Made by a program: the position numbers and the translations under genes
NCBI RefSeq assembly: GCF_000024905.1
Contig: NC_013522.1
Location: forward strand, 744,001 to 808,000
Direction: 5' to 3'
DNA length: 64,000 nt
From: Thermanaerovibrio acidaminovorans DSM 6589
GTDB lineage: Bacteria; Synergistota; Synergistia; Synergistales; Synergistaceae
Notes under the pieces: generated by a model
Told to the model about the DNA's origin: nothing
The model's input: only the letters and a program-made list of their open reading frames with translations
The model's database searches: none
In this document: piece after piece, positions 34,180 through 36,985 of the stretch
Numbering within the stretch: position 1 is the first letter of the stretch
Layout: each line of letters begins with the position of its first letter

Positions 34180-36141
34180 ATGGCATCACCAAAGGGTTTC
34201 AACGTCCTGGATGGCCTAAATCCGAAGCAGGTGGAGGCGGTCACCTACTGTGATGGCAACCAGCTGATCCTGGCGGGGGCCGGGAGTGGCAAGACCAGGG
34301 TGTTGACCAGGAAGATAGCTTACCTAATAAGCCACAAGGGGGTCTCGCCTTCCAAGATCCTGGCGGTGACCTTCACCAACAAGGCGGCGGGGGAGATGCG
34401 GCAACGGGTTGAGCGCCTCCTGGGGGGAAGCCTGCACGGCATAAGGATATGCACCTTCCACTCCTACGGGCTCAACTTCCTCAGGCGCAATGAGGAGATA
34501 ATGCGCCGGATGGGCTACGCCACCCCCCTGGTGGTGATCGATAGGTCCGATCAGAAGCGGCTCTTGAAATTGCTTCTCAAGGAGAACAACGTGGACGAGA
34601 GGCGGGTGGATCCCTCCTGGCTCATGGAGGCCTTCTCCGCCGCCAAGGGGGAGGGGAACGGCAGCGCCTACTTCCGGGGGGAGGCCCAGAGGCTCTTCGA
34701 GGCCTACGAGGCCAAGATGAGGTCCCAGGGGGCCCTGGACTTCGACGACCTCATCCACCTGCCGCTGAAGATACTCTCCACCCACCGGGAGGCCCTGGAG
34801 AGGGAGCTGGACTCCATAGAATGGGTCCTGGTGGACGAGTATCAGGACGTCAACCGCTCTCAGTACATGTTGCTCAAGAGGCTGTCATCCCGGGGGCAAC
34901 GGACCGTGGTGGTGGGGGATCCGGATCAGGCCATATACGGCTGGAGGGGGGCCGATGTGTCCATGATCCTCAACTTCGACAAGGACTTTCAGGGGGCCAA
35001 GGTTACGGTGCTGGAGCAGAACTACAGGTCCACGGGGCACATCCTGGAGGGGGCCAACTGCGTCATAGCCAGGAACTCCGATAGGCCCAAGAAGAACCTA
35101 TGGACCGCCGCCAGCAGGGGAGAGAAGATCCGGATCCTCAAGGCCAGGAATGACGAGGAGGACTCCCGTTGCCTGGTGGACTGGATACTGGAGCTTCAGG
35201 GGGAGGGGTATGCCCTCAAGGACATGGCGATTCTCTACCGGGTGAACGCCTTGAGCCGGCTGTACGAACAGAGGCTGATAGAGGCGGGCATCCCGTACAG
35301 GGTCATAAGGGGGTTGGGCTTCTACGATCGCAAGGAGATCAAGGACGTGCTGGCCCTCATGCGGCTGGCCATCCAGCCCCGGGACCTGGTCTCTTTCGAG
35401 AGGATGGTGAACGTGCCCCAGAGGGGCATAGGGGCCAAGTCCACGGAGGCCCTATGGGCCTGGATGGGCCAGCTGGAGGCCCAGGACCCGGGGGAGTTCT
35501 GGCGGTCCGTCCTGGAGGGAGATGCGCCCCTTAAGGGCCGGGCCCGGGAGGGGATAAGGGCCCTGGCCCGGGGGATGCTTGGAATCCTGTCCCTCCGGGG
35601 CAACATAAGGCTGGCGGTGCGCTACATACTGGAGGAATACGGCTACGGGGAGCACCTGGAGAGGGAGGACCAGTCCACCTTCGAGGAGAGGCTTCAGAAC
35701 GTGGAGGAGCTGATGTCGGTGTTGCCCGAGGGAAGCATAGATGACGTGCTATCCGAGGTGGCCCTGTTCTCCGATGCGGACGTGGCCTCCGGGGACGATC
35801 GGGTGAGCCTCCTCACCCTTCACGCCGCCAAGGGGCTTGAGTTCCCGGTGGTGTTCATGGTGGGGCTGGAGGAGGGGATCTTCCCCAACGCCAAGTGCAG
35901 GGAGGACAGGTCCCTTCTGGAGGAGGAGAGGCGGCTCTTCTACGTTGGGATGACCAGGGCCCAGGAGAGGCTCTTCCTATCTGGGGCCGCCAGGCGGGTC
36001 CTCTTCGGCAGCTTCATGATGAACCCCTTCTCCCGATTCCTATCGGAGATACCCTCCAGCTGCGTGGTGGAGGACGACAGGACCAAGGAGGTATCCGGCG
36101 TTGTTTACGGTGGCGCTAACAGGAGACGTTGGAGCTGGTAA
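34180..36141 (+). CDS. UvrD/PcrA/Rep-family DNA helicase
   Basis: A 653-residue superfamily 1A 3'-to-5' helicase. Motif Q and Walker A are LNPKQVEAV and AGAGSGKT (residues 32-39). Motif II is VDEYQD (218-223), motif III DPDQAIYGWRGAD, and motif IV EQNYRSTGHIL. Motifs V and VI appear as LLTLHAAKGLEFPVVF and YVGMTRAQERL. It probably unwinds DNA in repair or clears stalled replication forks. The length is closer to Rep than to PcrA, which carries a longer C-terminal tail. The stop is overlapped by 41 nt by the next gene. Confidence 0.93.
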   Translation: MASPKGFNVLDGLNPKQVEAVTYCDGNQLILAGAGSGKTRVLTRKIAYLISHKGVSPSKILAVTFTNKAAGEMRQRVERLLGGSLHGIRICTFHSYGLNFLRRNEEIMRRMGYATPLVVIDRSDQKRLLKLLLKENNVDERRVDPSWLMEAFSAAKGEGNGSAYFRGEAQRLFEAYEAKMRSQGALDFDDLIHLPLKILSTHREALERELDSIEWVLVDEYQDVNRSQYMLLKRLSSRGQRTVVVGDPDQAIYGWRGADVSMILNFDKDFQGAKVTVLEQNYRSTGHILEGANCVIARNSDRPKKNLWTAASRGEKIRILKARNDEEDSRCLVDWILELQGEGYALKDMAILYRVNALSRLYEQRLIEAGIPYRVIRGLGFYDRKEIKDVLALMRLAIQPRDLVSFERMVNVPQRGIGAKSTEALWAWMGQLEAQDPGEFWRSVLEGDAPLKGRAREGIRALARGMLGILSLRGNIRLAVRYILEEYGYGEHLEREDQSTFEERLQNVEELMSVLPEGSIDDVLSEVALFSDADVASGDDRVSLLTLHAAKGLEFPVVFMVGLEEGIFPNAKCREDRSLLEEERRLFYVGMTRAQERLFLSGAARRVLFGSFMMNPFSRFLSEIPSSCVVEDDRTKEVSGVVYGGANRRRWSW

Positions 36142-36985
36142 GTCCACCCTTTTGTCCATGTTCGCCCGACTGGGGGCCAGGACCGTATCGGCGGACCTGG
36201 TGGCCAAGGGGCTCTGGGAGGATCCCCGGGTCCGTGGGGCCTTCGCGGACCGATGGGGGGGCGTGCCAATCAACCCCGACGGTACCCTGGATGTGGGTAC
36301 GATATCCCGGCGGGTCTTCTCCGACGAGGGGGAGTACAGGTTCCTGTGCGCGGTCCTTCACCCCCTTACCTGGGAGGTGCTTCAGGGGATGGTGGGGCAG
36401 GACGGGATATGGGTCCTGGAGGTGCCCCTCCTCTTCGAGTCCGGCGTGCCCCATTGGATCGATGGGACCCTCTTCCTTGGATGCCCTCCCCAGGTGAGGC
36501 TCTCCCGGGTTATGGTCAGGGGCTGGGATCAGCGGGAGCTGGAGTCCCGGGAGAGGTGGCTGATGCGGTCGGAGGATAAGCGGCGGATGGCGGACTGGGT
36601 GATAGATAACCAGGGGTCCATGGAGGACCTGTGGGGCTCCGCGTTGAGGATCTACCAGGAGATGCGGCTCCTGAACTCTGTGGTGCTGGGCAACGTAACG
36701 TTCCCATCCGCCCATGAGGCCCTGGAATTCTCCCGCCGGATGGTGGAGTCGAAGCTTGCGGCTTGCTGCAGGGTGAGGGGGGTGGACAGCGTCTACCGAT
36801 GGGAGGGGGAGGTCTACTCCGAGCCGGAGGCGGAGTTGGCCTTCAAGACCGTGGAGGGGGCCATCCCCGCCATAAGGGATCTACTCGGGTCTCATCCCTA
36901 CGACATGCCCGCCCTGTACTTCGAGAGGCCCCACCGTATGGGGATCCAGCTCCGCCGCTGGGTTGTCCAGAGCTGTTCCTCATGA
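36101..36985 (+). CDS. coaE: Fused dephospho-CoA kinase and CutA1 domain protein
   Basis: A 294-residue two-domain protein. Residues 1 to about 190 are CoaE, which makes coenzyme A from dephospho-CoA and ATP: P-loop GDVGAGKST (8-16), VSADLVAK, and the lid and substrate helices with VLEVPLLFESG. From about residue 195 the sequence becomes CutA1: VTFPSAHEALEFSRRMVESK, then LAACC, SVYRWEGEVYSEPEAEL and HPYDMPALYF. Both domains look complete and in one frame without a stop. The start is TTG with AAGGAGG 9 nt upstream, inside the helicase gene. CutA1 is a stable trimer linked to metal tolerance; why it is fused to CoaE is unknown. Confidence 0.88.
   Translation: MFTVALTGDVGAGKSTLLSMFARLGARTVSADLVAKGLWEDPRVRGAFADRWGGVPINPDGTLDVGTISRRVFSDEGEYRFLCAVLHPLTWEVLQGMVGQDGIWVLEVPLLFESGVPHWIDGTLFLGCPPQVRLSRVMVRGWDQRELESRERWLMRSEDKRRMADWVIDNQGSMEDLWGSALRIYQEMRLLNSVVLGNVTFPSAHEALEFSRRMVESKLAACCRVRGVDSVYRWEGEVYSEPEAELAFKTVEGAIPAIRDLLGSHPYDMPALYFERPHRMGIQLRRWVVQSCSS

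Follow-up and report, generated by a model that had tools for sequence, protein, structure and literature searches.

Dephospho-CoA kinase (CoaE) is an essential enzyme that performs the last step of coenzyme A synthesis, and CutA1 is normally a very stable trimeric protein. CoaE depends on a P-loop lysine (K14), a catalytic aspartate (D32) and a lid arginine (R140, in M. tuberculosis/E. coli numbering; PMC3019153). E. coli CoaE has been crystallised as a trimer, reported to be sulphate-dependent in the crystal, while the M. tuberculosis enzyme switches its oligomeric state in a ligand-dependent way, being active as a monomer and less so as a trimer (PMC3123319). The closest analogue of the protein described here is the mycobacterial CoaE-UPF0157/GrpB protein (Rv1631; PDB 6n39; PRK03333), whose accessory domain is attached to the same end of CoaE but is unrelated by sequence to CutA1; both trimer and monomer have been reported (PMC2765170, PMC3123319), and the C-terminal domain is needed for folding (PMC2765170). 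CutA1 is found from bacteria to humans and its function is unclear; its trimers are intertwined through β strands and locked by Tyr45, Trp47, Tyr81, Tyr98 and Trp101 (PMC3004244).

A CoaE-CutA1 fusion in Thermanaerovibrio acidaminovorans

We analysed a window of 64,000 nucleotides from the closed, single-contig genome (1,848,474 bp) of Thermanaerovibrio acidaminovorans. An initial annotation had proposed that a complete CoaE runs here, without a stop, into a complete CutA1 domain, in a gene lying between a helicase and a tRNA-end enzyme. The features of this region are as follows (window positions):

34180..36141, + strand: UvrD/PcrA-type helicase gene, upstream, overlapping the fused gene by 41 nt; a conserved neighbour
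36085..36092, + strand: Shine-Dalgarno sequence AAGGAGGT, 8 nt 5' of the coaE-cutA1 TTG (from the sequence)
36101..36985, + strand: coaE-cutA1 fused gene, TTG start at 36101, TGA stop at 36983-36985, 294 aa (open reading frame and translation; fused frame in 35 other genomes)
36101..36676, + strand: dephospho-CoA kinase domain, residues 1-192 (PF01121, structure match 4i1u, alignment to E. coli CoaE)
36620..36676, + strand: junction helix, residues 174-192, where the last CoaE helix enters CutA1 strand 1 (194-201) (AlphaFold2)
36677..36982, + strand: CutA1 domain, residues 193-294 (PF03091, structure match 1p1l)
36794..36802, + strand: Tyr232 and Trp234, CutA1 trimer-interface aromatics (Tyr45/Trp47 of SIB1 CutA1; alignment, role from PMC3004244)
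36893..36910, + strand: H-x-Y-x-x-P motif with His265, Tyr267 (interface Tyr81) and Pro270 (alignment, PMC3004244)
36959..36961, + strand: Trp287, CutA1 interface (Trp101 of SIB1 CutA1; alignment, PMC3004244)
36982..39585, + strand: DHH-CBS-CBS-polyA polymerase gene (A-adding tRNA nucleotidyltransferase), downstream, with an ATGA overlap at 36982

The proposed architecture and position both hold: each Pfam match exceeds its cut-off, a single helix joins the two domains, and the gene stands between a UvrD/PcrA-type helicase gene on its 5' side, within whose final 41 nt the TTG start sits, and an A-adding tRNA nucleotidyltransferase gene on its 3' side. PF01121 (CoaE) covers residues 3-175 (E = 9e-30; 104.1 bits against a curated cut-off of 27), TIGR00152 (CoaE) scores 78.5 bits, above its cut-off of 65.55, and the kinase part matches the fold of 4i1u with a Z of 22.6. 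K14, D32 and R136 are all present, R136 aligning to R140 of the E. coli and M. tuberculosis enzymes, and this part of the protein is a predicted dephospho-CoA kinase with its catalytic residues complete. PF03091 (CutA1) covers residues 199-289 (profile positions 5-97 of 99; E = 2e-17; 63.2 bits against a curated cut-off of 22.4), and the fold of this part matches that of CutA 1p1l (Z 17.3, rmsd 1.1 over 101 residues). The NCBIfam equivalog dival_cat_tol_CutA, which has a full-protein cut-off for standalone CutA, gives 53.7 against 120 bits; therefore we speak of a CutA1 domain and not of a CutA tolerance protein. The AlphaFold2 monomer model of the fused protein has a mean pLDDT of 92, and its junction is one helix with no loop. 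Regarding separate copies of either gene, which the initial annotation had suggested looking for, the closed genome has no second coaE or cutA: each family gives one match, and both lie inside the 36101-36985 reading frame.

Distribution of the fusion in Synergistota

The Synergistales are an order of anaerobic bacteria. Whether the fusion is conserved in the phylum, a question raised with the initial annotation, was answered by a survey of 188 Synergistota genomes (the T. acidaminovorans window included): a CutA1 match lies in the CoaE frame in 36 of them, from 12 genera and 5 families, with three of the 36 cut by contig ends. Standalone full-length CutA1 is present in the phylum only in G002 (family f11, which belongs to another order) and G098, where CoaE is separate and tail-free. 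Neither has the fusion, so that relatives with two separate genes, which the initial annotation had named as grounds for giving up its reading, are found only outside the carriers. In an alignment of 36 proteins, the intact ones together with a few that are eroded, the CoaE Asn170 column and CutA1 column 207 lie exactly 37 residues apart in every sequence. Because the junction length is the same and the gene order largely the same across carriers, a single fusion event followed by vertical descent is likely, as the simplest account of the sequences. When the genome contigs were searched with the fused protein, the only relatives of CoaE or CutA that came up were distant ones.

In the gene-order comparison across Synergistota the helicase gene lies 5' of coaE throughout, and the DHH-CBS-polyA polymerase gene lies 3' of it in most families in which CoaE bears a tail; the latter gene is absent from this spot in genera g3 and g11-g14 of family f1 and in f7g50. 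At L141:2691-4034 (- strand) of one draft genome (G107; f6, g48), a CoaE without CutA1 is in frame with a polyA-polymerase head domain (PF01743, E = 3e-20), an apparent CoaE-tRNA nucleotidyltransferase fusion that lacks the DHH and CBS domains normally present in the neighbouring gene.

Two further sets of sequences deserve mention. In L075 (G152), unlike in its close relative L070, the fused CutA1 seems to leave the frame after the H-S-Y-E motif, either through a recent frameshift or through a fault in the assembly. A set of small proteins, roughly 105-140 aa long (L169-L174, from G050, G084, G071, G025, G043 and G087), matches the CutA1 profile of Pfam in its second half only, barely above the cut-off; they resemble NIF3/YqfO-type PII-like proteins, and therefore Pfam may mislabel them as CutA1. 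The weak matches of family f6 (profile positions ~42-85) were considered as genuine standalone CutA1 genes and rejected on reading the open reading frames, which match no more than the second half of the profile.

Eroded and lost tails

Beyond what the initial annotation had proposed, CutA1-derived tails, probably eroded or lost repeatedly, are found across much of Synergistales. CoaE proteins taken from 112 of the Synergistota genomes fall into three states: with intact CutA1, with a tail of similar length (~90-118 aa) that stays below the Pfam cut-off, or with no tail (28 residues or fewer, except for the odd fusion L141). Profile-profile comparison linked most of the tails that Pfam does not recognise to CutA1, while reversed and shuffled controls stayed at baseline. 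Since the tails as first cut included a few CoaE and linker residues, the comparison was rerun with these removed. The trimmed tails of f4g26 (E = 9e-11), f10g57 (7e-8), the f6g29 group (4e-7) and f7g49 (1e-6) matched CutA1, those of f8g52 (2e-4) and f5g28 (3e-4) did so more weakly, and those of f6g34, f6g30, the f10g55 group, f8g53 and f7g50 gave weak or non-significant matches. For f6g30, f6g34 and the f10g55 group homology is argued from the position and length of the tail together with the longer, untrimmed comparison; f8g53 and f7g50 are not assigned. Judged by these profiles, most of the unrecognised Synergistales CoaE tails are eroded CutA1.

On a maximum-likelihood tree built from the kinase domain alone, the three tail states require seven changes, and the well supported branches force at least three changes for each state. 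Two tail-free families, f2 and f11 (the latter from outside the order), form a weakly supported group, close to which the tail-free members of f6 are placed. Because these lineages lie near one another, the tail was likely gained inside Synergistales and later eroded or lost, on a weakly placed root. CutA1 was probably ancestral in most of the order and repeatedly eroded or lost, which argues against a general need for it in CoaE catalysis in Synergistales.

The residues that lock the trimer differ sharply between intact and eroded tails. Trp47, Tyr81, Trp101, a conserved Glu, His79 and Pro84 (CutA1 numbering) are invariant in the 31 intact fused copies; at the Tyr45 position, 30 of the 31 have Tyr or Phe. 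From the 35 eroded tails nearly all interface and cleft residues are gone. This contrast is partly built in, because the groups were sorted largely by Pfam match, and its completeness is notable. Glu243, His265, Tyr267 and Pro270, which line the cleft between subunits, are present without exception in the 31 intact copies, whereas most eroded tails have lost them. The T. acidaminovorans domain holds four of the five interface aromatics, the Tyr98 position being Leu284; Tyr98 is replaced in every intact fused copy (31/31), whereas the standalone CutA1 sequences examined have Tyr or Phe there.

An eroded member modelled with AlphaFold2 from an alignment of seven rows reached a pLDDT of 83, with two of the five models under 65. 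The order of strands and helices is the same in this model and in the T. acidaminovorans protein, but strands β2 and β3, of 13 and 15 residues in the intact domain, are shortened to 7 and 7. A fold search with the eroded model gave CoaE and other kinases only among the matches listed.

Selection was compared between tail and kinase as a ratio of dN/dS values, which we read as a trend and not as a test, given the small counts and the saturation of several dS values. Among intact pairs the ratio was 0.8-1.0 in seven of nine measurable pairs and about twofold in the other two, and eroded tails were mostly relaxed (ratio ~2-5 in f10g58, f6g29, f5g28, f6g30 and one f10g55 pair). The exception is f7g49, where the tail is as constrained as the kinase in close pairs. 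The f7g49 tails (L143-L147, L180) lack the CutA1 signature residues and yet are constrained among close relatives, which hints at a new role for the tail.

Possible roles of the fused domain

We favour, at about even probability and from sequences and models, the explanation that CutA1 would serve as a scaffold at the C-terminus, bringing the kinase into trimers and stabilising it, fused once and later eroded or lost. The initial annotation had likewise thought of a forced CoaE trimer, or else of a ligand sensor. The CutA1 domains of three chains would interlock, and the unbroken, loop-free helix of the junction would keep the three CoaE domains fixed in a three-fold arrangement, which would stabilise the kinase and may set its activity. 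The fusion would have arisen once within Synergistales; in several lineages the tail would then have been worn down, without its trimer-locking residues, and in others removed. The data show the fusion, its presence in single copy, its conservation, the interface residues that are kept and purifying selection on the CutA1 part; trimerisation of the whole protein, its stabilisation and any effect on activity are what we infer from them. We prefer the scaffold because of the loop-free junction, the tolerance of CoaE for three-fold arrangements and the mycobacterial C-terminal domain that aids folding, and the tails that outlast their CutA1 residues fit a role in the kinase itself. Mycobacterial CoaE is less active when trimeric, so that forcing the enzyme into threes would not necessarily activate it; this counts against the scaffold, as do the replacement of Tyr98, one of the five interface aromatics, in all fused copies, and the many Synergistales that live with an eroded or absent tail. 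T. acidaminovorans Su883 grows optimally at 55 °C (PMC3035242). If growth temperature were the explanation, intact CutA1 would occur mainly in thermophiles; yet lineages with intact, eroded and absent tails were not told apart by charge bias and IVYWREL content of the helicase and the CoaE core, a weak proxy for thermophily, and this missing link also speaks against the scaffold.

An error of sequencing or assembly hiding a stop between two genes, which the initial annotation had kept in mind, has a negligible probability: the genome is closed, and merged genes were ruled out by the independent genomes, 35 besides this one and 12 genera in all, that have the same fused frame and a constant junction. 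A passive fusion, in which CutA1 would keep its own job after loss of a stop codon in the operon and leave the kinase unaffected, would agree with CutA1 being usually a separate protein, as in G002 and G098, and with standalone CutA1 being stable and trimeric by itself (PMC3004244). We consider it unlikely, because CutA1-derived tails keep a similar length even where the CutA1 features have disappeared, with kinase-like constraint in the close f7g49 pairs; the loop-free junction of constant length and the Tyr98 replacement common to the fused copies also speak against it. Somewhat less likely still is an allosteric sensor, in which a PII-type CutA1 trimer would bind a small molecule in the inter-subunit cleft and signal through the junction helix to CoaE. 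The conservation of the cleft residues in intact copies and their loss from most eroded ones agree with it, as do a CutA crystal structure with bound bis-Tris (6gdw) and the regulation of M. tuberculosis CoaE through ligand-dependent oligomerisation (PMC3123319). Many relatives, however, make CoA without the cleft site, and cleft conservation cannot separate sensor from scaffold because the same residues also hold the trimer together. That a PII-like CutA1 trimer senses a metabolite in its cleft and so controls three tethered kinases at the last step of CoA synthesis seems to us improbable, more so than signalling in general.

Comparison with known systems

A CoaE with a C-terminal accessory domain is already known from mycobacteria; CutA1 as that domain is not described in the literature searched. 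No paper in it mentions CutA or CutA1 alongside CoaE or dephospho-CoA kinase, in line with the remark in the initial annotation that the fusion is not commonly described, and among solved structures we found no chain with both. Whatever its role, CutA1 is here locked to an essential enzyme of known chemistry, therefore its effect could be measured by a plain kinase assay, and intact, eroded and tail-free natural variants can be compared. The locus would be a case of an oligomerisation domain captured, probably once, and then repeatedly worn down on an essential gene. If the sensor explanation were true, CutA1 would gain a concrete partner and job, with the eroded relatives as natural controls.

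The mycobacterial model PRK03333 gives the T. acidaminovorans protein 80 bits, under its cut-off of 215, and the match is confined to CoaE, the UPF0157/GrpB domain being absent. Standalone CoaE, including the trimeric crystal form from E. coli (1n3b), has the same kinase domain and catalytic residues, but the E. coli enzyme carries no CutA1. Throughout its length the fused domain has the fold of standalone CutA1 from E. coli (1naq), T. maritima (1kr4) and P. horikoshii (1uku), with Z 16-17 and rmsd 1.1-1.4. It also has most of the conserved residues in common with them, but differs in being linked to an enzyme and in the replacement of the aromatic at position 98. Finally, designed T33 cages are built on CutA1-type trimers (PDB 4zk7, 7l85), a scaffold that in 7l85 presents the trimers of another protein (entry titles); these cages are man-made, whereas the CoaE-CutA1 fusion is natural and carries an enzyme.
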